DNA of 64,000 bases from Candidatus Endonucleibacter sp. (ex Gigantidas childressi) (GTDB lineage Bacteria > Pseudomonadota > Gammaproteobacteria > Pseudomonadales > Endozoicomonadaceae): contig JASXSU010000001.1 of the NCBI GenBank assembly GCA_030674875.1, positions 248,001-312,000 of the forward strand, in the 5' to 3' direction. The first letter of the stretch is position 1. Each line of letters opens with the position of its first letter. Made by a program: the position numbers and the translations under genes. This document shows positions 3,732 to 31,270 of the stretch, in pieces. The notes below the pieces were generated by a model. It had not been told where the DNA came from. It made no database searches and saw nothing but the letters and a program-made list of their open reading frames with translations.

Positions 3732-4838
3732 TTAGGCACGGCTTGCCTGCTGTCTCGATAACCCTCGCTTGATGTTGTGCGCAACACACATCATCTCAAA
3801 TCGCGTACGATTCCGATCAAGACCCAGATAACGTGCTTTCGCCATCTAGTAGTGTTGCTTCAAAACACCAAAGACGCGCTCAACGGTACATCTCACTCCC
3901 GAATGTAGCTGATTAAATTTCTTGGATTTTTCGTCTAGCGGCGTATTGCGATAAGTTCGCTTTATCACTCTGTTATCAATGGACCGCTCAGCCAGCCACT
4001 GGTCATGCGACTGGCTGCGGTAAGCACTATCCGCATAAGCCGCAGATTCGTCGCCGCTTAATAACTCGGTAAAACAATTGGAGTCGTGAACATTGCCTGC
4101 CGTGTAATCCGTTGACTTGATGAAGCCATCTTCATCAACATTGATGTGCGCTTTGTAACCGTAGGTGCTTTTACGTTTCCCATCGGAACCAACTTTTACA
4201 TTCCAATCCGCTTCAGGGTCTTGAGTCGAATCACCATGCTTGTTTTTGTTGGGGCGGCATTGCTTGGCCTCAATCACGCTGGCATCGACAATACTGACTT
4301 CTCCCGATTTGATATATACCCAAAGCATTTCAAATTGCTACTAGGCAGCAAGTAAGCGAAGCCCCGTGAGCCTACGAGTAGGTGATCGGGGTGAGCGAAC
4401 GCAGCCAACAACGTAGCAACTTGAAAGGCGACGGGTATAAAGCCATTGCTCACTAAGCTGGGCATTGATCTCGCTGAGCAATCCGTCCATTAAACATAGC
4501 GTGTCCAGTTTCTGTCTAAACCGCCAAAACGTCGAGTGATCCGGCACAGAATCAGAAATATCCAGCCCGGTAAAACGGCGAAATAACAAATCGCGCGCCA
4601 GCTGTTTTTCCAGTGCCAGATCACTGAGCTTGTACCAGCTTTGCAGCAGCAGCGCTTTAAACATCATTAGTGGAGGCCAAACCTTCTCGCCACGCGCTTT
4701 GGAATGAATTTGTGACAGCCGCTGCTCTAACCGTGACCAATCGATAAGTTCGTGCACGGCATCCAGATCTTTGACTGTATCGTGCTCGATCAGCATGACG
4801 TCGGCCAAGCTATGTTGTGTAAGATTTCTCCAAGCCAT
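3732..4838 (-). pseudogene. IS5-family transposase, interrupted by ERIC and a stop codon
   Basis: The N-terminal part (from 4838) reads MAWRNLTQHSLADVMLIEHD and includes GEKVWPPLMMFKALLLQSWY and SVPDHSTFWRFRQ, typical of the IS5 family. The ERIC-like element then interrupts it. The C-terminal part has SIVDASVIEAKQ (first Asp), YADSAYRS (second Asp) and GVRCTVERVFGVLKQHY (Glu). Removing the ERIC element at its TA target gives the continuous reading EQWLYIKSGEVSIVDA. A second defect is a TAG after KQHY, where the copy at 22298-22668 reads GAG (Glu). The gene is dead. Confidence 0.88.
4315..4439 (+). repeat. ERIC-like element inside the IS5 transposase
   Basis: 125 bp from TATACCC to GGGTATA with the central inverted block CCCCGTGAGCCTACGAG / GGTGATCGGGGTGAGCG and the tail TAGCAACTTGAAAGGCG. 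This layout matches the enterobacterial repetitive intergenic consensus (ERIC, usually about 127 bp). Insertion into a transposase gene shows that it moved as a unit. Nearly identical to 30950-31076 but in the opposite orientation. Confidence 0.88.
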
Positions 4839-5748
4839 TGTAGTTCTAGTGGTTTCCGCGTTTTGCTTTCAATCTATTATTCCAGATTATCAACATGGTT
4901 TCCCTGTGTTTCGTGCAAAGGTCTCAAGAAATTCGTACTTTTTTGAAAAATTGGATAATAGCTTTGCCGTTAACTGTCTCAAATTGTTCAAAAACAGCAG
5001 CTGACAGGTTGTTTAACTCAATAGCCCCAATAATATTTATCCTTGTTCGGCTATCGGTTGTATTGATGACTTTCAGCTCTTCATAGTGCTTGACAAACTC
5101 AGCCTGTTTATCCGCATCTGTCTTATAGGGAACACCCTTGGATTGTTTATAGGTGAACCCTTTCTGATGTAGCCACCGATTCATACCTGACACGCTATAT
5201 TGAATTTTCCAACGCTCAGCAATATAAGCGACAATTTGATGGGTATGAGCGTAGGTTTTCTCAGATACATGCCCAATCAATTGTTGAGTTTGTTCATCAT
5301 TTAGATGGCTCTCACTGCCACCATTTTCAGGTTTAAGTTTTTCTTTTTTTATGTAATCTTTGATGTGACGACTGATCGTGAATTCACTTTTTCTCAAAGC
5401 CTGAGCAATAAAAGTTATTGACCACCCTTCAGACCACAATAGTATCGCTTTAATACGGTCACACTCTCGTACATCCCACAATATTTTATGGCGAGATTCC
5501 AAGTCCATTTTTTACTGTTGGGTCAGGGTGAATTTTGACACTAATGTAGTCTGAAGAAAAATCACTAAAAATAAAGCATCTTCAATACACTTGGGTATAT
5601 TCCCTGCAAGAAGTAAGAGCTCGACATCAGGAATGATTGGAGATGCAGCCAGGTGGAAAAAGAGTGAAACCGCTTGATTCTATAAAAAGAAATGATTGGT
5701 ACTGACTTGGCTGGTACCAGTCAAAACTGAAAACTACATCAAAGGATA

Positions 5749-7773
5749 TTAACCATCAATAGATTTATATAGCGCTTCTAGGCCTATTTTTCCAGCCATT
5801 TTCTTTTGCTCAATAGGGGTATCTTCATTGAATCCACTGTAGATTAAGTCTTCTTTGGGTAGTTCATCGATAAAACGACTGGCCGTTGTATCCACCATCT
5901 CTCCAAATTGTTTGCGTTTACCAGCTAAAGTCATGGTGAGGGTTTTGCGTGCTCTAGTAATTCCCACATAAGTAAGTCGTCTTTCTTCTTCTATGTTATC
6001 TTCTTCAATACTAGTTCGATGAGGTAATATATCCTCTTCCATACCCATCATAAAGACATGAGGATATTCAAGACCCTTGGATGCATGGAAAGTCAAAAGC
6101 TGAACACGATCTGCATCGTCTTCTTCTTCTTGCCTTTCTAGCATGTCTCTTAATATCAATCTGCTCACGGCATCCTCAATACTCATGGGCTTCTCATCTG
6201 GCTCCATGGTGCGGTCAATAGTTTTCTGTAGAGAATCAATCAAAAACCAAACATTGGCTATACGCTTCTCGGCAGCGGCAGGTGTGCTACTATTTTGCTT
6301 TAACCAATTTTCATAATCACTGTCTGTTATCATTTCACGAACGATTTGAACGGGGTCGTCTTCTGTTTGTATCAAGCGGAATACCCCAGCTATCCACTTG
6401 GTAAAACGACGCAGCTTTTCTATGTATTGCGGTTTGAGTATTTCTTCAATACCTAGCTCAGAGCAAGCTTGATAAAGACTGATATTGCGATGATTGGCAT
6501 ATCTTCCCAATTTTTCCAGAGTTGATGTACCGATCTCCCGGCGAGGAACGTTTACTATCCGTAGAAAAGCATTATCATCAGCATGGTTAATCAGTAAGCG
6601 CAGGTAAGCCATAATGTCTTTGACTTCGGTACGAGCAAAAAATGAGGTGCCACCGGTGATATGATAGGGTATCTGATGGTGCTGCAGTTTCATTTCTAGC
6701 AGTCGCGATTGAAAATTTCCTCTGTATAGTACAGCATAATCTTTATAGTGTGTGTCAAGGCGTAACTTGTGAGACAGGATTTCAACAGCAATTCTCTCAC
6801 ACTCCATCTCATCGTTCCGGCAGCGTATAATTCTGATTTCATCTCCAAGACCAAGCTCGCTCCACAATGACTTATCGAAAATATGAGGGTTATTAGCAAT
6901 TAAAGTATTTGCTGCTTTAAGAATTCGACTAGTAGATCGATAATTTTGTTCCAGTTTTATGACCTTTAAGCTTGGATAATCTTCTTTCAGCTGCATCAGA
7001 TTTTCTGGTTTGGCACCACGCCACGCATAAATGGATTGATCATCATCACCAACTACGGTGATTTTACCCCGTGTGCCAACCAGTATTTTAACAAGGTTGT
7101 ACTGACTAGCATTAGTGTCCTGATACTCATCAACTAATAGGTAATGGACTTTGTTTTGCCATTTTTCAAGAATATCAGGGTTACTGTTTAATAACATGAC
7201 CGGCTTGAGGATAAGGTCATCAAAATCTACTGCGTTATAAGCTTTAAGGGTGCGATCATAATGTTCGTAGACTCTTGCGGAGCTCATATCTGCCGGTTGC
7301 CTGGCTTGCTCTAGGGCTTGCTGGGGAGTGATCATGTTGTTTTTCCAGCTTGAAATAGACTGTTGAATGTGGTCAGCCGTTTCATCATCAGCCTCAATGT
7401 CTCGCATCATCAACTCGCTAATAAGCGTTTTTGCATCTTGGGAGTCAAAAATAGAAAAACCTAGCTTATAGCCAAGAGCCTGATGCTCTTTGCGAATAAT
7501 ATTTAACCCAAAATTGTGGAAGGTTGATACGGTTAACCCACGAAACACCTTACCTTTTACTAGTAGCCCTACGCGCTCTTTCATCTCCCTAGCCGCTTTG
7601 TTCGTAAACGTGACTGCAACTATATGCTTGGCCTTAATTCCACACTCTTTTATTAAGTAGGCAATTTTGGTGGTAATAACACTAGTTTTTCCACTTCCAG
7701 CACCAGCAATTACCAACAATGGGGTGTTGATATATTTTACGGCTTCATCCTGCCTTTTGTTAAGTCTCTGCAC
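5749..7773 (-). CDS. rep: ATP-dependent DNA helicase Rep
   Basis: 674 residues (E. coli Rep 673), UvrD/PcrA superfamily 1 helicase with 3'-5' polarity that clears proteins ahead of replication forks. Motifs in order: AGAGSGKT (about 23-30), FTNKAAREMKERV, LLVDEYQDTN, VVGDDDQSIYAWRGA, EQNYRST, LLTFHASKGLEYPHVF and EERRLTYVGITRARKTL. The choice of Rep over UvrD rests on the length and on LGYKLGFSIFD and QNKVHYLLVDEYQDTN, which track E. coli Rep closely. The start is GTG at 7771-7773, preceded by a weak AGGTAG. It stands alone between mobile DNA and marC. Confidence 0.96.
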   Translation of the reverse strand: MQRLNKRQDEAVKYINTPLLVIAGAGSGKTSVITTKIAYLIKECGIKAKHIVAVTFTNKAAREMKERVGLLVKGKVFRGLTVSTFHNFGLNIIRKEHQALGYKLGFSIFDSQDAKTLISELMMRDIEADDETADHIQQSISSWKNNMITPQQALEQARQPADMSSARVYEHYDRTLKAYNAVDFDDLILKPVMLLNSNPDILEKWQNKVHYLLVDEYQDTNASQYNLVKILVGTRGKITVVGDDDQSIYAWRGAKPENLMQLKEDYPSLKVIKLEQNYRSTSRILKAANTLIANNPHIFDKSLWSELGLGDEIRIIRCRNDEMECERIAVEILSHKLRLDTHYKDYAVLYRGNFQSRLLEMKLQHHQIPYHITGGTSFFARTEVKDIMAYLRLLINHADDNAFLRIVNVPRREIGTSTLEKLGRYANHRNISLYQACSELGIEEILKPQYIEKLRRFTKWIAGVFRLIQTEDDPVQIVREMITDSDYENWLKQNSSTPAAAEKRIANVWFLIDSLQKTIDRTMEPDEKPMSIEDAVSRLILRDMLERQEEEDDADRVQLLTFHASKGLEYPHVFMMGMEEDILPHRTSIEEDNIEEERRLTYVGITRARKTLTMTLAGKRKQFGEMVDTTASRFIDELPKEDLIYSGFNEDTPIEQKKMAGKIGLEALYKSIDG

Positions 7774-7825
7774 CTGAATTATATCTACCTGAGTGAAAAG
7801 TGGTATTTATGTACATGTGTAACCA

Positions 7826-8434
7826 TTATAATTTCATCCAGTGTGAAACACCGATGGCTGTCATAATCATTTCTACAGACAGTGCCGCCAAAATCATGCC
7901 CATCACTCGAACAATAATAGCTGAACCATTGTGACCAAGCACCCTAAAAATTGAATTAGATAGAAGCATCAAGCAGCAGGTTGTTAGTAGAACAAAAAAT
8001 AGAACTCCTGTAGTCATTGCTTGCTGAGTAATGTCATACACCTGGTTGTCAGATGACACAATAACCGCCATAATTGCACCGGGACTGGCAATAGACGGGA
8101 TTGCTAAGGGAAAAACAGCAAGCTCATGCCCTGGTTCCTCACCATCACTCGTGTATGCTGGGTTTGTGAATATCATTTGAAGACCAAATAAAAATAGAAT
8201 AACGCCTCCTGCTAGCTGCAGCGAAATCATCTGAATATCCATAGCCTTGAGAAGCACCTGCCCAATCATCAAGGCTGAAAATAATATCAAGAAAGCATAA
8301 CATGTTGCTTTTATAGCTGTTTTATAACGTTGAGTTGGGGTGAGCTTGGCTGTAAGAGCGGTGAAAAGAGCTAAAGTACCAACAGGATCTATAGTGGACC
8401 ACAGAATAATTAAGTCTTTTATTAACTTTTCCAC
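7826..8434 (-). CDS. MarC family integral membrane protein (YhgN-like)
   Basis: 202 residues, about six hydrophobic segments. The N-terminal LWSTIDPVGTLALFTALTAK and the mid-protein LQLAGGVILFLFGLQMIF are the MarC-family (UPF0056) signature. The length and the IDPVG motif resemble E. coli YhgN. The family sits in the inner membrane; its function is unknown, and an early link to multiple antibiotic resistance was not upheld. It lies 52 bases upstream of rep on the same strand and could be cotranscribed. Confidence 0.85.
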   Translation of the reverse strand: MEKLIKDLIILWSTIDPVGTLALFTALTAKLTPTQRYKTAIKATCYAFLILFSALMIGQVLLKAMDIQMISLQLAGGVILFLFGLQMIFTNPAYTSDGEEPGHELAVFPLAIPSIASPGAIMAVIVSSDNQVYDITQQAMTTGVLFFVLLTTCCLMLLSNSIFRVLGHNGSAIIVRVMGMILAALSVEMIMTAIGVSHWMKL

Positions 8435-9084
8435 AATAGTATCCTTATAATTTTAATATTGAGCTTGCTCTAACGAGGTTGAAGTAAGGCACAAATACCT
8501 TCCCTCATATCGTTATCATTAAAATCGTGTTAGCTGTCTCATTCGCTCAAATCACCTATTGTTCGTGGGCTCATAGAGATTAGTTCGCTTATTGTCTACC
8601 CATGCCTTCAATGGAGTGTTATGCTTCCCGTGAAAAGCGGCCGCTGTAATGGTGCGTCTGCGTGCTTTCATGAATGAAGGTATGAGAAGGTCTGTTCTAA
8701 GATAACTTACCAAGCGTACCACTATCTTGGCAGTTATCCTAGCCTGAGGTTGTTTTATGCCAATTACCTTTCAATGTGAGGTTGTTTACTACTTTTCTTT
8801 CCGGTGTTGTCAAGATAGTTGTCGCCTCAGTTCAAGCTGATTTTTTAAGTTTATTGGATAAATATTTGTCTGGATTAAGCCATACCTCGTGAATTAAATT
8901 CCAGTTTTTTGTGGCCTCCTACCCGTAGTTCAGGGTGGTATGTTGTCTGCTTGTAAACCTTTCGCTGGTTATCCATGAGTACATCAGACTTGATCATGCG
9001 TCAGAAATTTCAGTCCGCTGTACTTGTGTTCTTCGTTGTACTATCGTACAAAGCTATGTACTCAGTTTCGTGCTGCTTTAATAC
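8435..9084. other. Gene-free stretch with a decayed ERIC-like scrap
   Basis: No convincing gene. About 8530-8618 resembles a worn ERIC-like element in reverse (CATTCGCTCAAATCACCTAT, then CCATGCCTTCAATGG). The rest, including a small open frame at 8975-9166 without a recognisable product, shows nothing I can name. Confidence 0.5.
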
Positions 9085-9330
9085 GCGCATTCAAATTCCA
9101 AGTGCATCACAGCTTAAGCTGCTAACGCAGCCCTGTGTTCACCCATTATCAGGGCGAGTGTTTTGAAATTCAAAGCTTCTCTTGGCCGAGAATTAAGCCG
9201 CATCAATGCTAACTTCACCTATCTGACCGACCTTCTTGAAGTCTGTATTCTTTGGAAAATATTGTCGTAGCAAGCCATTGGTGTTCTCATTTAACCCTCG
9301 CTCCCAATAGCTGCAGGGGTGCGCAAAGTA
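9085..9330 (-). mobile_element. IS30-family element (type c), terminal fragment with transposase C-terminus
   Basis: The left end GCGCATTCAAATTCCAAGTG is a near-match to the ends of the miniature elements at 11353 and 27946. The minus strand reads AEVYFAHPCSYWERGLNENT then NGLLRQYFPKNTDFKKVGQI and ends in SIDAA, the C-terminal part of an IS30-family transposase including the catalytic Glu (NENTNG). The rest is absent past about 9330. This is probably a relic of the full-length parent of the miniature elements. Confidence 0.75.
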
Positions 9331-9505
9331 AACCTCCGCCGATAATGCTTGGCTGATTTTCAGAAATTTTTATCCAGAAAATTTTGAGTTTTGGTTAGGG
9401 TGTGCTCGGTAGCCTTTATATGTAATAGGATAAGGAGTCTCTTTGAGTGTCAGAACTCTAAGAAGAGGTGAAGTTTTTATCGCCATCACTAAAGGAGTTA
9501 TAACA

Positions 9506-9601
9506 ATGTCTGACTATACAGTTATGATAATAGAAGTATTGATGCTTGTACTAATCTTACCAGTTGTGATAGATAGAGTGTTTGGTTACTTAATAGATTA
9601 G
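9506..9601 (+). CDS. Possible 31-residue membrane miniprotein
   Basis: Short ATG-TAG frame encoding MSDYTVMIIEVLMLVLILPV followed by VIDRVFGYLID. AAGGAG (9492-9497) sits 8 bases before the ATG, a strong ribosome binding site. The product would be one hydrophobic helix of about 17 residues with a polar N-terminus and an Asp/Arg after the helix, the shape of small single-span membrane proteins. I do not recognise a family, and the region around it has no other gene, so it could also be chance. No promoter was identified. Confidence 0.4.
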   Translation: MSDYTVMIIEVLMLVLILPVVIDRVFGYLID

Positions 9602-9914
9602 CGAGAGTAAGGAAGAGAATGACATTAAGCTGTGTGTGAAGTGTAGAAGATAAGCGATGAGAGTTATCGGCGCTCCTGCTCACCTGCACTCATGGAGATA
9701 CTCTCACTTGCCTTAAATCCACGACTTCAACAGAAGCGAGAATACATCTTTAATTGCTGCGATTAACTATAGAATCAAGTAAGTCATGACTTAACCAGCA
9801 AGTATAACCCAGATCATTTCCCAATAGCCAAAACTGATGATAGAGTTAGTAGATATCATGCAAATAAAAGCATTCCGTAAACTCTTTCAATAAACTACGA
9901 CAAAAATAACCACC

Positions 9915-10478
9915 ATGAAACAATATCACTTACAAATTACTGTAATACTATTACTCACTTTTTTCATCCAAATCACTGAGGCAAAAGTTTACACAACCAT
10001 GGATAACGATGAAACAATCAGGTTTTCCGACACTCCAACAAACTCAGAGCAAGAAAAAGAAGTGGAAATAGAGCCCACTAACACCTATAAAGCGATAACA
10101 CCAACTATAGTTATAGAAAAAGAAAAAAAGAAAATAGTTAAAATAACTTACAAGAAACTTGTGATTACAGAGCCTGAAAATGGTATCACCCTTAACGGAT
10201 TAAGCAGCATCACTGTTAACACTGTCGTTACTCCACCTCTCCATAAAAATCACAATATGGTGGTATTACTAAATGGCAAGCAAGCTTCCAAACCCAAACA
10301 TACAACTAAGTTTACGCTACAAAACCTCCATCGAGGAGAGCATAATATAACGGTTCAGATCCTAAACAAGAAGGGAGAAAATATTATTGAAGCCAGTAAT
10401 ACTATTTATATATTCAAGCCCAGACCCATAATTCTCCGAAATCTTCCTCATTCAGACCCCATCATCATTGAGCCTTGA
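9915..10478 (+). CDS. Secreted DUF4124-type protein
   Basis: 187 residues. A signal peptide of about 23 residues (hydrophobic ITVILLLTFFIQ, cleavage near TEA-KV) is followed by KVYTTMDNDETIRFSDTP, the pattern of DUF4124, a short N-terminal domain common in exported gammaproteobacterial proteins. The second half (about 75-170: ITEPENGITLNGLSSITVN, VVLLNGKQ) looks like an Ig-like beta domain of the sort found at penicillin-binding protein C-termini. Likely periplasmic; function unknown. The ATG has no clear ribosome binding site. It stands alone. Confidence 0.7.
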   Translation: MKQYHLQITVILLLTFFIQITEAKVYTTMDNDETIRFSDTPTNSEQEKEVEIEPTNTYKAITPTIVIEKEKKKIVKITYKKLVITEPENGITLNGLSSITVNTVVTPPLHKNHNMVVLLNGKQASKPKHTTKFTLQNLHRGEHNITVQILNKKGENIIEASNTIYIFKPRPIILRNLPHSDPIIIEP

Positions 10479-10744
10479 CTCAGAGTCATCCTTCTACAAC
10501 TCTTGCACTTCCTATACCTTCATCATGACTGGTGCGAACAAACTACCGAACAAAACCCCCACTAGTCGACGAGTAATTGGTCGTTGAGGCGAGCAGGAGC
10601 CGTCAACAACCTCCCTTCGTTAAGAAGACATAGGTATTGGATAAAAGATAGAACACAAACCAAGTATCAGAATATCAGCCATGCCAACTTGAATTTTTTG
10701 TCTATACTTTATTTAGAAACGCAGTAACAAATGGAGTTGTAAAC

Positions 10745-11290
10745 ATGAATGTTTCATATAGAATAACCGAGAAAAATAGGTTTTTATTATTATCCGGCAT
10801 ATTTAGTGTCGTATTATTGACACCTGTCGATATTTTATCCTCTACGGGCCAACTTGGCAACACCTCAAGCGCAACAATGAAGATTAGCCTAATTATCCAC
10901 CCCAAGCTAGAGACAAAAATACCTCCAAAAATAGCACTAAGCTCTCCAGCAGAGACACTCTCAACCACCTCGCTTAATACAGTGATACCACTTTGCATTA
11001 ACGGTAATGGGTTAGCTCATTATAGTGTTACCGCTAAAGGACACCTTGATACAGGTGACTTTGCTTTAACAAATGGTGACAGTTCTCTTCCTTACAGTGT
11101 CTTACTCTGGAAAAATATCAGCAGTGCACCTCAAACACTGAATAGCGGCCAACCTAGCCAAAATTTACAGCCACTAAACAAAAGTGCAAGCTGCAAAGGG
11201 TCGCCCAGACTAGCATTACAAGCAGATCAATTACCTGACCCCAGCCAGCCTCTATATGGCGCAATAAATCTTACACTCAGCGCCCACTGA
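10745..11290 (+). CDS. Exported pilin-like protein
   Basis: 181 residues with an N-terminal hydrophobic stretch (FLLLSGIFSVVLLTPVDIL) that would act as a signal peptide. The body is Ser/Thr-rich and ends in a beta-strand-like GAINLTLSAH; a Cys pair (PLCINGNG and SASCKGS) could form a disulfide. This resembles small fimbrial or spore-coat-U-type subunits, but I cannot assign a family firmly. GGAG precedes the ATG by 8 bases. The fimbrial-type chaperone gene at 12271 on the same strand supports a surface-fibre role; an IS30-derived element separates them. Confidence 0.5.
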   Translation: MNVSYRITEKNRFLLLSGIFSVVLLTPVDILSSTGQLGNTSSATMKISLIIHPKLETKIPPKIALSSPAETLSTTSLNTVIPLCINGNGLAHYSVTAKGHLDTGDFALTNGDSSLPYSVLLWKNISSAPQTLNSGQPSQNLQPLNKSASCKGSPRLALQADQLPDPSQPLYGAINLTLSAH

Positions 11291-11352
11291 ACTTTAATAA
11301 CTCTCACCCATAATTAACCTCATCCAAAGAATGAGGTTAATTATAACAACTC

Positions 11353-11867
11353 GCGGATTCAAATTCCAAGTGCATCACAGCTTAAGCTGCTAACGCAGCC
11401 CTGTGTTAACCTATTGTCAGGGCTCGTGTTTTGAAATTCAAATCTTTTCTTGGCCGCGAATTAAGCCGCATCAATGCTCGCTTCGCCTCTATCTGACCGA
11501 CCTTCTTGAAGTCTGTATTCTTGGAAAATATTGTCGTAGCAAGCCATTGGTGTTCTCATTCTACTCGCCCGAGCCGACCGCCTATCTGTTCGGCCTTGTG
11601 CTTGCCTATGCCTATATTCACGTTCACCAGTATTCCTTGCCAACTCACGATTCACCGTGGACTGGCTGGTGCCAATGATCTCCGCTATCTACCTTTGGCT
11701 GCAACCGCTTTTCTTTAGTGCGGAAATCTGGCATCGTTGTTCGTAAGCCAGTTGTTGGTAAGTTATCGTCATCACTTCATCTCTTGCCGGAGAAAGGGGT
11801 AGGAGCTTACCTTCAGCTGACCCTTTCTTCTACCTAGTAAAGTGATGCACTTCAGATTTGAATCCGC
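11353..11867. mobile_element. Miniature IS30-derived element, 515 bp
   Basis: Inverted ends GCGGATTCAAATTCCAAGTG and (reverse complement of the right end) GCGGATTCAAATCTGAAGTG bracket 515 bp. The minus strand keeps pieces of an IS30-family helix-turn-helix (NRELARNTGEREYRHRQAQG) joined out of frame to the transposase C-terminus (RTPMACYDNIFQEYRLQEGR). The catalytic middle is deleted, so the element is non-autonomous. Related copies: 27946-28417 and the fragment 9085-9330. Confidence 0.8.
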
Positions 11868-11959
11868 CACTGTTTACCTTAGTTCATTATCATAATAGAA
11901 TGTATTTTCAAGGATTTGGAATTGCAACTCAGCGATAAGTGATAGAAGTCACAAAATTT

Positions 11960-14754: not shown

Positions 14755-14772
14755 GAATTAAATTCTCTGCAA

Positions 14773-21215: not shown

Positions 21216-22293
21216 GCTGGGTTCAAGCAATAAGTGCAATCGGCTGTCCTGTGTAGACTTCGAGTGGTGTCCACCCTCCTAAAACTTTCCTAGGCATGGT
21301 ATTGATCAACATTTCCATTGTCCTCACATCGCCTTCTGTCAGATGACTCAACGCCATTTTTTTAGGCCAGGTTCTCCGAATGATGCCATTGGTATTTTCG
21401 TTAGTTCCCAGCTGATAACTAGCATAAGGCTTGGCAAAGTAGATATCTGCATTCATTGCTTTTGCTACTTTCTCATGGGCTGCAAACTCACCACCATTAT
21501 CTAGGGTGACTGTGCAGACCGATGACACCCGCTTCAGAAGCTTGATCATACTTTCAGCAACAACTTCGGCGTGTTTTGTATCAACTTTCCCTATTAAAGT
21601 TAACCGACTCTTGCGGTCTACAAGGGTGACCAGATGGGCGTCCTGTCCATAAATCGTATCACCCTCCCAATCGCCTAGACGAGACCGCAGATCAACAACT
21701 GCGGGCCGATAGGAAGTATCGACGCGGCCTGGGATCGTGATACGCCCAGCCTTACGCTTACCACCGTTGCAGCGCCTCTTGCCAAAGCGGGGTAGATTCT
21801 TATACAAAGAGCCTCCTAGCACGTTGTTAGTAGCAACACGTTTATAAACAGTGGTGTGGCTGAGTGCGATGTCGGGCACTTCCACCTTCATCCGGAAACT
21901 GATATTTTCAGGAGACCAACCAAGCAATAGCCTCTTCTTTATTATGGGCATGTGTCGTTCATTTGTTTTGCTAAACTTTGTAGCTGTCACTCTACGCTGA
22001 CTGGCTAGTGCGTGGGCGCTCTCAGCACCGTAGCCATCATCATTGGCATTACGACTCAACTCTCGTGATAAAGCACTCTCACTGATACCTACTGACACTG
22101 CGATTTCTTTCTGCATGTAGTCTGTTCTAAGAAGAGCCTCAATCTGATACCGTTGCCCTTGAGTCAGCTGCTTGTATTGCCTAGTTTGAGTGCTCATTCT
22201 TGGCTTCCATTTTTAGTGTTATAGCTACAAATATACCGGCAGCTGGCTCACCTATAAAATTTCAGTCAATTGCACTTATTATCTTAATCTAGC
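21216..22293 (-). mobile_element. IS30-family element (type a), complete with intact transposase
   Basis: 1078 bp between ends GCTGGGTTCAAGCAATAAG (left) and, as reverse complement of the right end, GCTAGATTAAGATAATAAG. Two decayed copies lie at 50642-51718 and 62432-63507. Flanks are IS630 on one side and IS5 on the other with no clear target duplication, so this copy marks a recombination junction. Confidence 0.88.
21223..22197 (-). CDS. IS30-family transposase, apparently intact
   Basis: 324 residues with an N-terminal helix-turn-helix (YKQLTQGQRYQIEALLRTDY, KEIAVSVGISESALSRELSR) and the full DDE core: GDWEGDTIYGQDAHLVTLVD (first Asp), VTLDNGGEFAAH (second Asp) and LGTNENTNGIIRRTW (Glu). 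The IS30 family inserts via circular intermediates, usually giving 2-3 bp duplications. It is the only transposase frame in the window without an obvious lesion, so it could supply activity to the two broken type a copies. Confidence 0.93.
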   Translation of the reverse strand: MSTQTRQYKQLTQGQRYQIEALLRTDYMQKEIAVSVGISESALSRELSRNANDDGYGAESAHALASQRRVTATKFSKTNERHMPIIKKRLLLGWSPENISFRMKVEVPDIALSHTTVYKRVATNNVLGGSLYKNLPRFGKRRCNGGKRKAGRITIPGRVDTSYRPAVVDLRSRLGDWEGDTIYGQDAHLVTLVDRKSRLTLIGKVDTKHAEVVAESMIKLLKRVSSVCTVTLDNGGEFAAHEKVAKAMNADIYFAKPYASYQLGTNENTNGIIRRTWPKKMALSHLTEGDVRTMEMLINTMPRKVLGGWTPLEVYTGQPIALIA

Positions 22294-22803: not shown

Positions 22804-23059
22804 TCTTAATCCTTAACCCACTCCACTTGTTGCATTATTCCATCTACATTTCAAAATTAGAACCTAAGAAATAATAGGAAAGAGCGCTTGACAATGAGAG
22901 CTATCAGGGTATGATAATTGGCTTAATGTCGTATATACCAAAATGGTTTGGAATTGTTACACTCCGATAAGTGGAGGAAGCTACAGTCGCTTAGTAACAC
23001 TCATCTACTGTGGTGAGAGAACACTGTAATAAAGTAGCACCTCTTACTGATATATATCA
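22804..23059. other. Gene-free spacer
   Basis: AT-rich spacer between the IS5 fragment and the next ERIC-like element. No gene or repeat recognised. Confidence 0.5.
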
Positions 23060-23172
23060 TATACCATGAAGGCTGGATGGCATAAACAAGCAAAGCTCCA
23101 TGAGCCTACTAACAGTATGTTTGGAGCGAGTGGAGAGCAGCAACCCCGCACCTTCAATTGAGGTGCGGTATA
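23060..23172 (+). repeat. ERIC-like element
   Basis: 113 bp: TATACCATGAAGGCTGGATG, CATAAACAAGCAAAGCTCCA, TGAGCCTACTAACAG, GGAGAGCAGCAACC and a right end CACCTTCAATTGAGGTGCGG then TATA. Block order matches the others. Confidence 0.75.
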
Positions 23173-23364
23173 GATGCTGTAAGTAGACTACCGGCAAATT
23201 CATGGGTGGAATCATGCTCAACAAGCAACAAGATTTCTTGCGTGAGAATATCCTTACGACGTTATTGCACTAGCCAAGACAACGCTTGGCATCAAAGGCA
23301 AATCAACAAAATAAACGAATAAAGTCGTTTGTTTTATATAATATTTAACTACACGGTGGTATGT

Positions 23365-26034
23365 ATGAAAGCTACTTTCTTTTTTTTAAAGAGTTCGCAG
23401 ATTAAAAGACAGTTTACGTGTTTCTTAGCATTTCTTTCAGGTGTTTTTTGCCCATCAGCTTTTCCTGTTTTATTTGAAAACTGGACTGAAACCGGTACTG
23501 TTTATTTGCTGGATATTTCATCAATAGAGAATGATGAGGAACATCCTGATAAGAAAAAGATATCTTTTTCTTATCAGTCGGATAATACAAAATGGAGTAA
23601 AAGTAGTAATGAGAGTAATGAGAGTAATGAGTTTAGCAATATACAGCGATTCATGGCACCACAAGATGAGGAAGATCATCATCATTTTGAGAGTATAGAT
23701 GGTGCTCTTGAAAATTGTCAGTTTTCAGCCTGCTGCCCTTCTTCTACACAAGGCAACAACTTGGAGATAGATTTTGTTTCGAAAAATAAGGATTCATATA
23801 AAACAAGGGAATGCTTAAATGATATTAGCGCGTCTTCATGTACAAAAACAAATAAGACTCTTTTAGATGCTCCTGGCGAGAGTATTGAGCTTCTCATGGG
23901 CGCCGATTGCTCATTCTACGCAGTCATAAGAGGGTTAGATCACCCTTATAATTCATATACCTTTGAGAAGATGATCTCTACACTGGGGAAGTCTTATGAT
24001 ATCGGACAGACAGTACTTTGCCACAGGCCTTTTTGGACAAAAGATGTTATTTCTTGTGATCAGAATACAAACGTTACTGAAGATTTTGATACATATATAA
24101 AAAATAATTTTTGCGATAGACCAAGTGGCCCTCAAAAAAAATATGATTGTTTTGTATTTAAGCTGAAATTAAAAGACGAAGATACTAATGAAATACGAGA
24201 TAACTTAAATGATAACCGCAATGCACTTATATCATCATCCACTATGACACTTATTCTCAAACAAACTGATAGGAGGAGAGCGTTTATACAAGCAGGAAAT
24301 AATGTCCAAAAAAGAGAGCAAAGAGGATACAAGTATGCGTGGACTTATGGTAGTTATGCCTCTAGTGATGAGCGTATACAAGGCAACGATATATTTGTGT
24401 TTAATCGAGACCTATTTTGTCAAGAATACATTCATATTCCAGCAATAATTAATATGAAACATAAAGTACTTAAGAATGCATCAGAAAAATATCCTGTTCA
24501 TTTTTACATAAAATACTTCGATAACAGCAAAAAAGAACTTCTAGTGGATGTTTATATTGAGCCCTGTGGCGACAATAGTCCCGTTCAAACAATGGGAACT
24601 GTCCAGGCTTGCTTGAAAACAACCATAATAAACAGCTCTGATGAAAATATAGAGGGAGCAAATAGTGACACTCAAGATTCTTTCGATAATTACCAGAATG
24701 GCCATCTCATAAAGGAGGCATATGAGGAGGGAGAGAAACTTCATTATGCTTTTCGTATTAGCCCGAACTTAGTCAAACATATAAAGCAAAACAGCTCTAT
24801 TGGCTTCAGCTTTAATTGGCATGAGGATTCTAAAAATACATGGAAAATACACGCTGAAGATGAAGCTACAGGCAAATGGGAACTATCTGGAGGGACACTT
24901 CCTGGCTACCGCTTAACTGAATTCCCTGTTGATTGGAGTGGAATAGTAGAACATCATACTCATTTTTCATCAGATGAGGCTTATGGAAAAATGAAGACTG
25001 ACACCAAATTATGTACTGGAAGCATGAAATTTGTGATCAGTGAAGATGACACTAATCATGACCAAACTTCCAAAACTCATAATTTGAAGTGCTTAGCTTC
25101 TCTTTCTGATAATGATAAGTCAGGAAATGTGGTAACAGCTGTTTGTCTAAGTGTTCGTAATGTTGAAGGAAATGATGCTCCTGCAAAAAAATCCATGGTG
25201 ACTAGACTCTTATCGATGAAGCTCGCCGAGAAAAGCAAAAAACAGCCTAAAAGCAACAGCAACAGCAACAGCAACAGCAAGACCAACGTCAACATCGAAC
25301 ATAAACGGATATGGTGTAAGTCTAATAGTCTCGATCAAACACCATTATTTCTCGATCACTTGTCACAAAATGATGTCAGCCGTGGGTATATGAAAGTAAG
25401 GATAGCCACAGTAGCTATGAGCATAGAAGAGGAGCAGTCGAAAACAACCTGCCTTCTTGGGACAGCCTCCAAAACCAGAACAGTTACCTCTCAGAAGCTA
25501 CTTCTCATTAACCCGGAACGAATAAATGGCGAAGTACTTAAACAATTACCCTCTGGTACTATACAAATGGCCTTCACACGCATAGGTGAACATGAAGTAG
25601 TCACTGCTAATTTTAACAGTCTACAGAAAGATGTCATAAACGTGTCAATGCATAACAATAATGGCATCTTTACAACTGGAAGTCCGGAAAAAAATACAGG
25701 CTCGATAACACTGAGCATTCCCCATACCTCTAATAATAATATGTATTTCGCAACCATTCAAAGTGAACGTATTAGTGTAGATGCAAAAGAACTAGCCACT
25801 CAAAAGGCGGTAGAGCTACAGAGTAATGCACTAAGCCTCCAAGGCAAAAAAGTAACAAATACTCAACGTCAGGAAATGACAGAAAAGATAATGGGAGGAA
25901 CAGTAGGACCGCAAACAGGTAAAAAAACACTATTTAAAGATCCAGAAGAAAAGATTGAATCTAAAACCTGGTGGCCAAGAATGTTCGGCAGCAGCACCCC
26001 CAAAGCAATTCAGTCGAGCTCTGATCATGAGTAG
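23365..26034 (+). CDS. Large exported protein, unrecognised
   Basis: 889 residues from the ATG at 23365; the open frame reaches back to 23329. The N-terminus KATFFFLKSSQIKRQFTCFL followed by AFLSGVFCPSAFPVLF looks like a signal peptide. The rest is rich in Asn, Ser, Asp and Lys with many scattered Cys (for example CQFSACCPSS, GADCSFYAVIRG), suggesting disulfide-bonded exported domains. Two low-complexity runs are seen: SNESNESNEFSN near residue 83 and NSNSNSNSNSK near residue 630. No family or catalytic motif is recognised. It stands alone between repeats; a secreted or surface protein is the most one can say. Confidence 0.6.
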   Translation: MKATFFFLKSSQIKRQFTCFLAFLSGVFCPSAFPVLFENWTETGTVYLLDISSIENDEEHPDKKKISFSYQSDNTKWSKSSNESNESNEFSNIQRFMAPQDEEDHHHFESIDGALENCQFSACCPSSTQGNNLEIDFVSKNKDSYKTRECLNDISASSCTKTNKTLLDAPGESIELLMGADCSFYAVIRGLDHPYNSYTFEKMISTLGKSYDIGQTVLCHRPFWTKDVISCDQNTNVTEDFDTYIKNNFCDRPSGPQKKYDCFVFKLKLKDEDTNEIRDNLNDNRNALISSSTMTLILKQTDRRRAFIQAGNNVQKREQRGYKYAWTYGSYASSDERIQGNDIFVFNRDLFCQEYIHIPAIINMKHKVLKNASEKYPVHFYIKYFDNSKKELLVDVYIEPCGDNSPVQTMGTVQACLKTTIINSSDENIEGANSDTQDSFDNYQNGHLIKEAYEEGEKLHYAFRISPNLVKHIKQNSSIGFSFNWHEDSKNTWKIHAEDEATGKWELSGGTLPGYRLTEFPVDWSGIVEHHTHFSSDEAYGKMKTDTKLCTGSMKFVISEDDTNHDQTSKTHNLKCLASLSDNDKSGNVVTAVCLSVRNVEGNDAPAKKSMVTRLLSMKLAEKSKKQPKSNSNSNSNSKTNVNIEHKRIWCKSNSLDQTPLFLDHLSQNDVSRGYMKVRIATVAMSIEEEQSKTTCLLGTASKTRTVTSQKLLLINPERINGEVLKQLPSGTIQMAFTRIGEHEVVTANFNSLQKDVINVSMHNNNGIFTTGSPEKNTGSITLSIPHTSNNNMYFATIQSERISVDAKELATQKAVELQSNALSLQGKKVTNTQRQEMTEKIMGGTVGPQTGKKTLFKDPEEKIESKTWWPRMFGSSTPKAIQSSSDHE
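25252..25280 (+). repeat. In-frame 6-bp microsatellite
   Basis: About five AACAGC units inside the 889-residue exported protein, encoding alternating Ser and Asn. Copy-number change would keep the frame and alter linker length only. Confidence 0.85.
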
Positions 26035-26132
26035 AGATTTACGCCCTTGTGGTGATAAAATCACTAGCACGATGAGTAGATCGTTAAGTGTATGAAGATG
26101 CAATATTAAAACTCAAATAAGTTACTACTTGC

Positions 26133-26232
26133 GTAGGCATTCGCTCACCCCAGCAGCTTAGCACTCCTAAGCTGTTGGGGCTTAGCTCACTCGCCTCTGC
26201 GCAACAACTCCAAATCCTTTGGATATATAGCC
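26133..26232 (-). repeat. ERIC-like element, second subfamily, best copy
   Basis: CATTCGCTCACCCCAGCAGC, TTAGCACTCCTAAGCTGTTG, GGGCTTAGCTCACTCGCCTC then CTTTGGATATA. The central part folds as a long stem around TTAGCACTCCTAAG. Abuts the next element. Confidence 0.6.
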
Positions 26233-26357
26233 GTTACCATTGAATACTTGGATAAGCGACAAACTAACTAATCTCCATAAACCTACAAGTAGTAGCTTAT
26301 TGGGCTGAGATAGGAGAGAGCCCCCCACACACAACTTCAAGGGGAATGGGTATATAC
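26229..26357 (+). repeat. ERIC-like element, main type
   Basis: Left CCGTTACCATTGAATACTTG, middle AAGCGACAAACTAACTAATC, right ACTTCAAGGGGAATGGGTAT. It shares TATA with the second-subfamily copy on its left and meets the IS630 relic on its right, giving three elements end to end. Confidence 0.75.
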
Positions 26358-27046
26358 CCAAGAGAGATCAAGATGCATGCGCAATAATATCAAAATTGTC
26401 ATTAATTCTGCTAACCAATGAAACACCAATTTTGGATACAGTTTTATAGAGTAAATAATTGGTTTTTTGTCGAAACTCCTTAAGTAGTTACGAAGTATTC
26501 ATCATTTCTGGCATATTTATTCATGACCCCCATAATCGCTCAACAGGGTTCAAATTTGGCAGTAAGACGCAAGGTATGTAGCTTTAATTTTCAATTTTTT
26601 AGCTTCCTCAACCAGCTCCTTTAAGCAATGGTAGCCAACACTACCAAGAACGATATGAATAACTTCCATTGATATAAGCGAGAATCTGGTAGATGTGAGC
26701 ATAGGTATGCTCAGAGACATGCTCGATCAATTGCCGTATTGACTCGTAATTCAAGCTACTTTTGCTACCACCATTTTCAGGAATCAGCTTTTCCTTTTTC
26801 AGGCAGTCATTCAGGTAGCAGTTTATGCTGGATTAGCTATTTATCAAAACTTTAACAATAGAGGATACAGGCCAATCTTAGGACTTTAACAATATCGCCG
26901 TAATACTGTCGCACTTTCGGACATAACGCTTTTTCTTATGGCGTAACTCCAAGTCTATTTTTGCTGTGGCACAGGGTAATTTTTGGCATGAACAGATAAT
27001 GCAGAAAAACATCTTCAAAATAAAGCATCTTCAATGATCTTGGGTA
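26358..27046 (-). mobile_element. IS630-family element, heavily decayed
   Basis: About 690 bp. The reverse complement keeps scraps of the transposase: the C-terminal region with PNLNPVERLW-like remains near 26540 and the N-terminal GVTP-free stretch near 26940 that parallels ESRHKILRDVRECDRI. Right end CATCTTCAATGATCTTGGGT then ATA matches the IS630 terminus. Internal deletions and many stops are present. Confidence 0.65.
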
Positions 27047-27173
27047 TATACCCGCAGCACGTGAAAGCGTGAGGTTATTGATTGCTCTCACTTCCCATAA
27101 TCACCTACACTCATAATCTCAGGAAGCTTCGCTCGTGTGCATCTAACCCACGCCTTCAATGGTAACTGGTATA
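27047..27173 (-). repeat. ERIC-like element, 127 bp
   Basis: Exactly 127 bp: TATACCCGCAGCACGTGAAA at the left; CACGCCTTCAATGGTAACTG then GTATA at the right; the centre has GCTCTCACTTCCCATAATCA. Reverse orientation. Ends 23 bases before the CDP-alcohol phosphatidyltransferase start. Confidence 0.8.
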
Positions 27174-27196
27174 AACTACCTTAGGCTTGAAAAATC

Positions 27197-27829
27197 ATGC
27201 TAGACCAGTGGACAATTCAGTGGATTCGTCCACCTATTGAAAAAACAGCAATACTGCTAAACAGCAAAGGTATTCGTCCCGACCAAGTGACACTGGCAGG
27301 GTTTCTAATAGGTCTGACCGCTATTCCTCTATTAGCTTGGCAGTGTTACGTTACTTCTCTAGTAATGATATTACTTAATAGAATCATGGATGGTATTGAT
27401 GGTGCCCTCGCTCGCTTGCAACAGCCTACCGATGCAGGTGGTTTTTTGGATATTACTCTAGACTTTATTTTCTATTCAAGTGTCGTACTAGGCTTTGCCG
27501 TGGCCGACCCATCGCGAAATGCTATTGCGGCAAACTTTCTACTTTTCTCATTTGTAGGCACGAGTGCTAGCTTTCTTGCCTATGGAATTATGGCTGAAAA
27601 GAACTGTTTAACGCATCCCCAGTTTGCATACAAATCACTCTACTATTTAGGTGGTCTGGCAGAAGGAACGGAAACCATTCTGTTCTTTACCGTATCATGC
27701 TTGATGCCTGCATATTTTCCTGTTTTGGCATTTAGCTTTTCTTTTATTTGCATGATAACCACTATTAGTCGGATCTGGACTGGTTATAAAACAATTAAAT
27801 CCTCGGCGAATAAAGTTTTTATCAGGTAA
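27197..27829 (+). CDS. CDP-alcohol phosphatidyltransferase family protein
   Basis: 210 residues with about six membrane spans. The signature is complete: MDGIDGALARLQQPTDAGG then FLDITLD gives D-xx-DG-xx-AR...G-xxx-D-xxx-D, the metal and CDP-binding residues of the family. Members transfer a phosphatidyl group from CDP-diacylglycerol to an alcohol in the inner membrane. The acceptor cannot be told from the sequence; GIRPDQVTLAGFLIGL fits the phosphatidylglycerophosphate/inositol-type branch loosely. It stands alone between an ERIC-like element and a miniature IS30 element. Confidence 0.85.
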   Translation: MLDQWTIQWIRPPIEKTAILLNSKGIRPDQVTLAGFLIGLTAIPLLAWQCYVTSLVMILLNRIMDGIDGALARLQQPTDAGGFLDITLDFIFYSSVVLGFAVADPSRNAIAANFLLFSFVGTSASFLAYGIMAEKNCLTHPQFAYKSLYYLGGLAEGTETILFFTVSCLMPAYFPVLAFSFSFICMITTISRIWTGYKTIKSSANKVFIR

Positions 27830-27945
27830 GAGTGTGTCACTTATGCTGGGAATCTAGGACCGATTCAGACTAGAACCAAGTTTCCCTGCATCGACATCCA
27901 AACCCTATGAGCTTTAAATGGCAAAATATACCTTGAATTCATGAC

Positions 27946-28417
27946 GCGGATTTAAATTCCAAGTGCATCACAGCTTAAGCTGCTAACGCAGCCCTGTGTT
28001 CACCCATTATCAGGGCGGGTGTTTTGAAATTCAAATCTTTTCTTGGCCGAGAATTAAGCCGCATCAATGCTCGCTTCACCTCTATCATTTTTGGCGTCAT
28101 TCTACTCGCCCGAGCCGACTCTGTACGCCGCCTATCTGTTCGTCCTTGTAGCTTGCCTTGCCTATAGCCACGTTCGCCAGTACTCCTTGCCAACTCACGG
28201 CTCACCGTGGACTGGCTGGTGCCAATGATCTCCGCTATCTACCTTTGCCTGCAACCGCTTTTCTTTAGTGCGGAAATCTGGCACCGTTGTTCGTAAACCA
28301 GTTGTTGGCAAGTTATCGTCATCACTTCATCTCTTACCGGAGAAAAGGGTAGGAGCTTACCTTCAGCTGGCCCTTTCTTCTACCTAGTCAAGTGATGCAC
28401 TTCAGATTTGAATCCGC
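27946..28417. mobile_element. Miniature IS30-derived element, 472 bp
   Basis: Ends GCGGATTTAAATTCCAAGTG and (reverse complement of the right end) GCGGATTCAAATCTGAAGTG. The right 300 bp are nearly the same as in 11353-11867; the internal deletion differs, removing more of the transposase C-terminus. The minus strand shows SRELARSTGERGYRQGKLQG from the helix-turn-helix region. Confidence 0.8.
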
Positions 28418-28502
28418 CCAATGTAGAAAGTCTTTTGCATTGCCTGAGACCTGCGTACTAGTCCACCATAGAAAAATACTATTCCGTTGTCGTGTTATTT
28501 GC

Positions 28503-28532
28503 ATAACCCAGCATAACCCAGCATAACTCCAA
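28503..28532 (+). repeat. Short 11-bp tandem repeat
   Basis: CATAACCCAG occurs three times in near-perfect head-to-tail order (the last unit drifting to CATAACTCC). Noncoding. Confidence 0.7.
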
Positions 28533-28642
28533 AGCTACCACTACTGATATAGCTCAACAGTAGCAATGTATCGAGTACAAATTCATAGGAATGCCATTCT
28601 ACAACAATGTGGGTCACATAACAAAACTCAACCACCAGCAAA

Positions 28643-28758
28643 ACCGATACCTATTGAGGGTGTAGGTAGACGATAAACGATCTAAGTCTTATATATTTTC
28701 AGACAATAGGTGATTGGAGTGAGTGAGATGTCAAGCAACTTCAAGGCTAAATAGGTTT
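28643..28758 (+). repeat. ERIC-like element, diverged
   Basis: GATACCTATTGAGGGTGTAG, GTAGACGATAAACGATC, TAGGTGATTGGAGTGAGTGA and CAAGCAACTTCAAGG in ERIC order; the right terminus has decayed. It lies just after the folA stop. Confidence 0.6.
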
Positions 28759-28769
28759 AATTCGAAAAG

Positions 28770-29282
28770 TTAACTACTAGGCTTCCTATCCATGACTAAG
28801 TGACTATATGTAAGGTACGGTACTTCATCAGTGACATGATCTTCCCTTGATGTTTCTTGCCACTGACTGTCATTAAAATCAGGAAAAAATGTATCTCCTT
28901 CAAAACTATGATACACACGAGTTAAGTATAACCTTTCCGCTTGCGGTAGCGCCTGTCGATAAATTTCAGCACCACCAATAACAATCAACTCATCAACACC
29001 ATCAGTAGTAGCGATATCCACTGCCAATGACAGCGCATCAGAAAGACCATGGACAACATGAATACCAGCATGCCAATAAGATTCATCCCGACTAATCACG
29101 ATATTGACTCTACCAGGCAGAGGCCTACCCAGCGATTCAAAAGTCTTCCTACCCATAATAATGGGCTTCCCCATAGTGACAGCTTTAAAATACTTCAAAT
29201 CACCCGGCAAATGCCAAGGCATCTTATTATTCATTCCAATTGTATTATTCTCCGCCACAGCGGCAATCATCGCAACTTTCAT
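28770..29282 (-). CDS. folA: Dihydrofolate reductase
   Basis: 170 residues (E. coli 159). MKVAMIAAVAENNTIGMNNK, MPWHLPGDLKYFKAVTMGKP, IIMGRKTFESLGRPLPGRVN and ELIVIGGAEIYRQALP are the full set of DHFR motifs; the catalytic Asp is the D of LPGDLKYFK and the NADPH site is IGGAEIY. The enzyme makes tetrahydrofolate with NADPH, the target of trimethoprim. A single gene flanked by mobile DNA. Confidence 0.97.
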   Translation of the reverse strand: MKVAMIAAVAENNTIGMNNKMPWHLPGDLKYFKAVTMGKPIIMGRKTFESLGRPLPGRVNIVISRDESYWHAGIHVVHGLSDALSLAVDIATTDGVDELIVIGGAEIYRQALPQAERLYLTRVYHSFEGDTFFPDFNDSQWQETSREDHVTDEVPYLTYSHLVMDRKPSS

Positions 29283-29427
29283 AAACTATCCCAACACTGC
29301 TTCAGAGCTCAAAAATATGTGTAATCCTATCCACTTTGAAGGCAAGGTAGTGTTGCCTGAGCTCTCATCTCCCGTCATCACTTCTAGGCTTACGGTACTT
29401 GCTCGTTTGCAGTCTACTCACAATTTC

Positions 29428-30067
29428 GCCGAATTCATACACTAAGTGCGACACCCAATTTAATAAAAACGATGAACTGCGATACCCTTAGTTTTTTGCT
29501 CCAATCACGAAGTAAAAACCTATGAAGTATCAACAGCTCACCGAGGGTGATAGATATATGATAGTCGCGCTAAAATGGCAAGGATTAAGTTTTACGGACA
29601 TTGCCACAGCTATCGGAAAACACCGAAGTACCATATATCTAGAATTTCAACGCAATACTTGTTGGCGGATGGCTCATATCGACCCATCAGGGCACAGCAA
29701 AGGACAAGAGCTCGACGTCGACGCTCAAGGAGAAACCAACATTTTACAGAAAAGGATTACGTATCATTAGGCAACTCTTACATAAACAATGGAGTCCTGA
29801 ACAGATTACGGGTTACTTAAAACGGATAGGTGTACGTTGATTTAGCCATAAAACTATTTATCGATATATTTGGCGTGATAAAAAGAAATGCGACTTGCTA
29901 TGGAAGCGCTTGCGTTGTGCTCAAAAGCGAAGACGTAAACGCTACAAGGCTTATGATAGTCGAGGCAGGATTGCCAATAAGCGCAATATAGCAGACCGAC
30001 CAGCTGAAGTAGAAACGCGTGAAACACTAGGTCATTGGGGAATAGATACCGTGATGGGTAAAGTGTC
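29428..30067 (+). mobile_element. IS30-family element (type b), 5' remnant, better-kept copy
   Basis: Starts GCCGAATTCATACACTAAGT. Transposase ATG at 29522 gives MKYQQLTEGDRYMIVALKWQ then GLSFTDIATAIGKHRSTIYL, a clear IS30-type helix-turn-helix. Frameshifts follow near 29757 and a stop (TGA) in the RIGVR block at 29838. The frame resumes as WKRLRCAQKRRRKRYKAYDS and RETLGHWGIDTVMGKVS, reaching the first catalytic Asp before IS630 cuts it off. No right end is found. Confidence 0.8.
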
Positions 30068-30126
30068 TATACCCAAGTGTATTGAAGATGCTTGATTTTT
30101 TAGTGATTTTTCTTCAGACTACGTTA

Positions 30127-31270
30127 ATGTCAAAATTCACCCTGACCCAACAGCAAAAAATAGACTTGGAATCTCGCCATAAAATATTGCGAGATGTACG
30201 AGAGTGTGACCGTATTAAAGCGATACTATTGTGGTCTGAAGGGTGGTCAATAGCTTTTATTACTCAGGCTTTGAGAAAAAGTGAATTCACGATCAGTCGT
30301 CACATCAAAGATTACATAAAAAAAGAAAAACTTAAACCTGAAAATGGTGGCAGTGAGAGCCATCTAGATGATGAACAAACTCAACAATTGATTGAACATG
30401 TATCTGAGAAAACCTACGCTCATACCCATCAAATTGTCGCTTATATTGCTGAGCGCTGGAAAATTCAATATACCGTGTCAGGTATGAATCAGTGGCTACA
30501 CCAAAAAGGCTTCACCTATAAACAACCCAAGGGTGTTCCCTATAAGACAGATGCGGATAAACAGGCTGAGTTTGTCAAGCACTATGAAGAGCTGAAAGCC
30601 TCGCTACAAAAGGATGAAGTGGTTCTGTTCATGGACGCAGCACATCCAACTCAAGCGACTAAGATCACAACAGGACGGATTCGCACAGGAGTTGATAAAG
30701 TCATCAATACAACCGGTAGCCGAACAAGGCTAAATATTATTGGGGCTATTGAGTTAAATAACCTGTCAGCTGCTGTTTTTGAACAATTTGAGACAGTTAA
30801 CGGCAAAGCTATTATTCAATTTTTCAAAAAAGTACGGGCTTCTTATATATCAATCATATGGTGCTTGATGGTGTTGGTTATCACCACTTAAAGGAGGTGG
30901 TTGAAGAAGCTGAAAAACAAGGTATAAAGCTTCATTACCTACCTCCGTATATACCCTCGCCTTTCAAGTTGCTACGTTGTTGGCTGCATTCACTCACCCC
31001 GATCACCTACTACTCGTAGGCTCACGAGGCTTCGCTTACTTGCTGCCTAGTAGCAATTTGAAATGCTTTGGGTATAGTGCAAATTTGAATCCAATTGGGC
31101 GACTGTGGAAAGTAATGAATGAACACGCGCGAAATAATGAATATTGCGCGAAACCGGCGGAGTTTCGACAGAAAATAAATCACTTCCTTGATGATACGTT
31201 GCCTAAAATTGGGGCTTCGTTAATCAGTAAAATTAACGACAATTTTCAGAGACTCAACTCTGCATTTTGA
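30127..31270 (+). pseudogene. IS630-family transposase, frameshifted and split by ERIC
   Basis: From ATG 30127: MSKFTLTQQQKIDLESRHKI, the helix-turn-helix region, then EVVLFMDAAHPTQATK with the first catalytic Asp. A frameshift near 30845 follows, then MVLDGVGYHHLKEVVEEAEK (second Asp) and KLHYLPPY. The ERIC-like element interrupts. Removing it gives PPYSANLNPI and then GRLWKVMNEHARNNEYCAKP. The catalytic Glu of NPIE is changed to Gly in this copy, while the copy at 3287 keeps Glu. The gene is inactive on three counts. Confidence 0.88.
30950..31076 (-). repeat. ERIC-like element inside the IS630 transposase, 127 bp
   Basis: Exactly 127 bp, TATACCC to GGGTATA, reverse orientation relative to 4315-4439 and nearly identical to it. 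The central stem is CTCACCCCGATCACC / CTCGTAGGCTCACGAGGC. The host reading frame CCG-TAT-AGT-GCA is restored by removing the element with one TA copy, direct evidence of TA-targeted insertion. Confidence 0.92.

Follow-up and report, generated by a model that had tools for sequence, protein, structure and literature searches.

ERIC-family elements inside insertion-sequence genes of a Candidatus Endonucleibacter genome: discrete TA-flanked units that were probably multiplied as passengers

Work on the TA duplication and the strain-level movement of ERIC elements reportedly goes back to De Gregorio 2005. In the available parts of the published accounts, ERIC is described as a MITE that inserts at TA and has an open frame giving in-frame fusions (PMC2759123), and both its TA duplication and its movement at the level of strains are on record (PMC2759123, PMC6267812). 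An ERIC relative, MITEPlu5 of Photorhabdus luminescens, is reported in passages of PMC6267812 with 552 complete copies and 47 indels between strains, and its ends are said there to resemble those of the 'CCC-type' IS630 elements ISPlu3/8/19. RUP of Streptococcus pneumoniae, as presented together with IS630-Spn1 in excerpts of PMC2229807 and PMC3049150, is likewise a MITE with IS630-like ends and a TA target, and was found inside more than six IS families.

The window, by which we mean the whole stretch of 64,000 nucleotides that was analysed, comes from the 3.68-Mb genome (G000) of Candidatus Endonucleibacter sp. (ex Gigantidas childressi), of which 1.37 Mb were read for the comparisons of sites. 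The features of the window are listed here by their positions in it.

3273–5599, minus strand: IS630 copy broken by the IS5 element with its ERIC, giving a nest of ERIC in IS5 in IS630
3597–4925, minus strand: IS5-family element (site IS5a) holding ERIC element 1, with ends GAGACC...GGTCTC, read by eye
4315–4439, plus strand: ERIC element 1, 125 bp including both TA copies, in the IS5 transposase
21223–22197, minus strand: uninterrupted 324-aa IS30 transposase ORF, with the empty sites S6 and S7
26226–27173, no strand assigned: ERIC (26226–26354), IS630 (26353–27048) and ERIC (27047–27173), with terminal TAs in common
30068–31285, plus strand: IS630 copy holding ERIC element 2, with ends TATACCCAAGTGTATTGAAGATGC and TATACCCAAGTGAATTCAAAATGC
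30950–31076, minus strand: ERIC element 2, 127 bp including both TA copies, in the IS630 transposase

The sequence-only reading had reported two nearly identical TATACCC...GGGTATA elements in opposite orientations within an IS5 and an IS630 transposase, and their sequences and coordinates proved exact; they are 94.5% identical over 128 aligned columns. The domain models agree with the hosts it had named, as Pfam DUF772 and DDE_Tnp_1 exceed their cut-offs in the IS5a transposase, and HTH_33 and DDE_3 in the IS630 transposase. Element 1 lies with its GTC-end first along the direction of the IS5 gene, which is split into two ORFs (4838–4341 and 4328–3846). Scored with the best NCBIfam model, NF033581, both of these parts stay under the cut-off of 140 bits, at 95.6 and 136.5. 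Element 2 sits directly ahead of the conserved SPNLNPIE motif of the IS630 transposase. This IS630 carries an independent 10-bp deletion besides, so that the copy would be broken even without element 2, and in the IS630 copy around IS5a a deletion removed the bases around its own ERIC site. The IS630 at 26353–27048 is a deletion derivative of a second type, with ERICs of inverted orientation directly on both sides. The window holds nine near-full-length ERIC copies and ten partial matches in all, and an Rfam scan of it at the gathering threshold returned no match. The sites S6 and S7, empty in the IS30 gene of the window, hold ERIC in other copies. This IS30 ORF is uninterrupted; most IS copies read in the genome are broken. 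At 30040–30068 of the window, an IS630 begins at the exact IS30-gene TA where three other IS30 copies (L004, L014 and L025) hold ERIC.

The label 'ERIC-like' was borne out more strongly than it had been put. The best match to the E. coli ERIC spans 100% of the query at 72.7% identity (E=1e-7), and judged by this full-length match both window elements are MITEs of the ERIC family. The folds of the two elements give one long hairpin (z of -6.9, -5.9 and -5.0 in three folds). A search of 5426 genomes with the element returned matches in 3197, of which 335 had a place covering at least 80%. In the genome, the pattern TATACCC-N100-130-GGGTATA occurs 179 times, compared with 0 for the backward control, which excludes chance for this pattern of ERIC ends. 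With an nhmmer model built from the local copies we found 265 near-full-length elements in the 1.37 Mb; the length was 128 bp in 77 of 143 near-full-length elements and 127 bp in 25 of them. As other sampled stretches were partly picked around known elements, the density estimate rests on 40 randomly picked stretches, where 126 near-full-length elements in 800 kb extrapolate to about 580 per genome. ERIC is thus present in hundreds of copies, many of them at the same site and in the same orientation within one IS type: 87 of the 265 elements lie at 19 multi-copy sites common to repeated hosts, with no pair in opposite orientation, and at least 12 sites are inside transposase genes. There were also head-to-tail arrays with common TAs (five units at G000:C1:219827-220447 and three at C3:1272319-1272696) and 12 tandem pairs in the 1.37 Mb, of which 11 have both units pointing the same way; such arrays may have originated by insertion into the terminal TAs or by unequal recombination.

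The genome itself provides empty counterparts. At the IS630 site, five copies (L031, L037, L040, L042 and L048) and the truncated copy L034 read continuously through CTCCGTATAGTCC, where filled copies read CTCCGTA-TATACCC...GGGTATA-GTCC, so that these natural copies without ERIC are missing exactly the element and one TA. The protein of L031 at this place is LPPYSPNLNPI; the peptide LPPYSANLNPI restored in the sequence-only reading departs from it through nothing but a base change peculiar to the window copy. That reading had held that both empty sites could be read from the protein, and this stands for IS630. For IS5 no empty copy was found in the genome: among nine matches to the 5′ part of this IS5 all seven that span the site are filled, in the same orientation. 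The refuting case it had named, homologous IS copies that do not continue across the TA, was not what we found for IS5: the protein of ISAba23, an Acinetobacter IS5, runs straight through the IS5a site (identity of 57% for the C part, 48% for the N part), and the continuity at IS5a is shown only against this distant protein. Across the 1.37 Mb, 19 sites had at least one empty match, gathered at gaps of -8 to 12 bases only, and exactly one TA was left between the flanks in 158 of 169 comparisons of a site with an empty copy; when six rows of ERIC beside ERIC are excluded, 13 sites remain and the count is 121 of 127, as expected from the TA target duplication of ERIC. Each element is therefore shown to be a discrete TA-flanked unit, and the host paralogues without ERIC lack this unit and one TA, which upholds the insertion at TA with TA duplication that had been proposed from the two window loci.

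The timing that had been proposed, insertion of ERIC after the ISs reached these loci, is not supported in that form. Besides the seven IS5a copies, six IS630 copies with both flanks intact are filled in a common orientation, next to 12 empty-site matches, and at IS5b ten of the 11 sampled copies are filled (two more ERIC-filled IS5b copies, L214 and L215, lie outside the 1.37-Mb sample). With no opposite pair at any shared site, ERIC probably entered each IS type once and was copied along as the IS with its ERIC was amplified. The copies in the window may then have landed already filled, and what the two loci bear witness to may be composites (IS::ERIC) that moved as a whole, rather than moves of ERIC. 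In seven copies a single ERIC links the left flank of S2 with the S5 right flank, the intervening stretch being lost, which looks like recombination between two ERICs; since they were amplified despite the lost part of the gene, amplified copies need no working transposase. The trees built from host IS copies have a star-like shape and long tips, and they do not gather the filled copies into one clade; at S4 the filled or empty label shows weak clustering (as low in 32 to 37 of 500 shuffles). They speak neither for nor against monophyly of the filled copies.

Two other explanations of the shared sites deserve weighing against the entry of ERIC once per IS type. Each IS type could have a hotspot at one particular TA, into which ERIC was inserted independently in many copies that had already spread. 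Filled and empty copies are indeed mixed in the star-like trees, and at all five sites that were measured, each with at least two filled copies, the ERICs are slightly closer to one another than their flanks are (0.959 vs 0.940 at S1), which points to repeated insertion at the same TA or to constraint. The consensus ERIC is moreover identical at IS5b, S1, S2, S4, IS5a and in 38 matched single copies; a single young master may therefore have been the source at all these sites. Independent insertions would nevertheless have to account for the absence of opposite orientations at every multi-copy site and for the nearly complete filling of IS5b and IS5a, and we regard them as unlikely to explain the pattern. 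Alternatively, the filled allele could have spread from one IS copy to another by gene conversion or recombination, without any transposition; it would likewise preserve orientation, and the S2–S5 copies suggest that ERICs do recombine. The filled IS630 and IS5 copies, however, have different genomic flanks and their own IS ends, which means that the ISs moved and that conversion could only add to transposition. As a replacement for transposition, conversion seems to us quite improbable.

A further possibility concerns the open frame of ERIC. In the consensus only one of the six frames is open, a frame that 80 of 143 elements keep free of stops. Five of the 12 coding sites use this frame (binomial p 0.036), among them the multi-copy sites IS5b, S2, S1 and S4, with hand assignment of the frame at four of the 12 sites: that of IS5a was read from the window ORF, that of IS5b was taken from the natural ORFs of L005 and L214 as the sole empty copy is frameshifted, that of S2 was taken from the filled copy (row QERL|IIPVAF) as its own row is degenerate, and that of S7 was set by the direction of the IS30 protein, though another frame is longer. 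At ten of the 12 sites ERIC points the same way with respect to its host gene (p 0.039). L214 encodes a natural, uninterrupted 377-aa IS5 transposase in which the ERIC peptide forms residues 83–124 and which scores 206.6 bits against the cut-off of 140, and in L035 and L044 the frame is likewise open through ERIC. Where ERIC went in with its one open frame in register, the transposase could conceivably still work despite the 42 added residues, and the IS::ERIC composites could have multiplied for this reason. We find this doubtful. Purifying selection on the ERIC peptide was not detected, the ratio of nonsynonymous and stop to synonymous changes being 59:28 at open-frame sites and 122:58 elsewhere (neutral about 2.3), and these counts show a peptide that appears to decay neutrally at both kinds of site alike. 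The difference in copy number gives only p 0.08, IS5a is filled throughout despite its closed frame, and the seven S2–S5 copies lack part of the gene. An apparent signal of selection in the ERIC part of IS5b (39 nonsynonymous to 69 synonymous) was rejected: private changes of the reference had been counted repeatedly, and the signal disappeared once each change was counted once against the group consensus. The broader version, in which the open frame is what lets ERIC multiply, as a tolerated insert of 42 residues in IS5, IS30 and the presumed IS630 driver with hybrids active long enough to copy themselves, strikes us as a long shot.

What would have moved ERIC into these sites is suggested by the IS630 ends. 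An IS630 subgroup with ends that match those of ERIC, intact in the relative G028, is the likely driver. This genome has an intact 342-aa IS630 with the near-identical copies L090, L107 and L112 and shorter open frames in L100 and L116. The candidate driver (P0001), an intact relative of the window IS630, scores 241.9 bits with NF033545 against a cut-off of 100. The IS630 ends start with TATA in most copies; those of the window and the genome are mostly like TATACCCAAGTG-N-ATTCAAGATGC and TATACCCAAGTG-N-ATTGAAGATGC, those of the G028 IS630 are TATACCCAAGTGAATTCAAGATGC and TATACCCGTGACCATTGAAGATGC, and the 150 ERIC elements that both begin and end in TATA have the consensus ends TATACCCAAAGCATTTCAAATTGC and TATACCCGTCGCCTTTCAAGTTGC. 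Beyond TATACCC, ERIC matches the G028 IS630 at 40 of 68 bases (shuffle mean 17.1, with none of 20000 shuffles as high) and the IS630 of its own genome at 37 of 68 (shuffle mean 17.3). In all nine comparisons, of three ERIC sets with three IS630 sets, the match was far above the shuffles (p at most 0.00005, with the two ERIC ends taken as independent, which they are not). At positions 8–14 ERIC and the G028 IS630 agree by side at 4 and 3 of 7 bases and crosswise at 0 and 1 of 7; with the own-genome IS630 there is no such pairing of sides (0 and 3, vs 0 and 2 crosswise). For control, ends were determined for four other groups of IS630 in two relatives that bear ERIC (G020 and G027), six single IS630 loci of relatives being left out, and these ends proved unrelated. 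Six sampled plasmid IS630s (Vibrio, Klebsiella, Enterobacter, Citrobacter), with transposases 59–61% identical, have the same kind of ends and keep TATACC or GGTATA at five of six left and five of six right ends. In the genome sample, 16 of 88 IS630-type ends adjoin an ERIC-like end, where at most 5 of 22 bases were allowed to mismatch, a rough share as some of the 88 are ERIC ends themselves. In the relative G020, several IS630 fragments lie within open frames of great length, as many as 3282 codons, and were perhaps inserted in large repeat proteins.

Against this candidate counts that the ERIC ends of the genome mostly have TTGC where the local IS630 has ATGC. Nor was co-occurrence detected among 56 relatives (both in 2, ERIC only in 9, the driver subgroup only in 4, neither in 41; Fisher p 0.34), a test from which three weaker driver matches (G009, G020 and G049) were left out, with 10 of 57 when any match is counted; the subgroup was found in two of the 11 ERIC-bearing relatives, and G035 and G026 have ERIC and no IS630 match at E<=0.001. 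In the genome itself, no intact ERIC-free IS630 of the driver type was found among the scored matches (47 of 124 candidates, and 56 of 56 in another set). Among the scored candidates of G000, the only stop-free IS630 frames longer than 300 codons in the matched part are those that run through ERIC (409 and 434 codons from stop to stop), which makes present mobility doubtful.

Taken together, we give a probability of roughly three in four to the reading that an ERIC-family MITE was moved in trans by an IS630-type transposase, then spread as a passenger of ISs, and is now largely immobile. The transposase would have acted in trans on TATACCC...TTCAAG(A/T)TGC ends and moved ERIC into TA. Once within an IS, ERIC would have been copied with it, and bursts of the IS would thereby have multiplied it. 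Its movement in this genome would by now have largely stopped, as no intact ERIC-free driver is among the scored matches. One chromosome offers ERIC sites together with their empty counterparts, at 13 sites if ERIC arrays are set aside, and a relative has a candidate driver that is intact. A second route of ERIC spread, as a passenger of other ISs, is suggested, by which ERIC copy number and shared sites need not mean transposition of ERIC. For single loci this calls for caution, as an IS containing ERIC may have arrived already filled.

Compared with ERIC, also known as IRU or RU-1, of E. coli and Yersinia (MITEEc1, MITEYpe1), the elements described here are alike in their length of about 127 bp, the TATACCC...GGGTATA ends, the TA duplication, the hairpin and the match over the full length. 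They differ in that the host family, which includes Endozoicomonas and Parendozoicomonas, is outside the Enterobacteriaceae and Vibrionaceae named in the available part of PMC10969869, that many copies lie inside IS genes, and that empty sites are found within one genome. For MITEPlu5, mobility was derived from the comparison of strains, and its insertion into ISs or amplification by them does not appear in the passages on it in PMC6267812. It is fair to say, as the sequence-only reading did, that ERIC mobility is usually argued by comparing genomes. The likeness to RUP is one of description, in the excerpts available, and here there are in addition filled and empty IS copies at the same site and open-frame hybrids. 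In the literature searched, which covered few subscription journals, no paper came up that deals with ERIC in Endozoicomonas or with its amplification inside ISs. The case is mostly a clean example of a known phenomenon, and what it adds is unusually clean evidence from within one genome and a corrected timing of the insertions.
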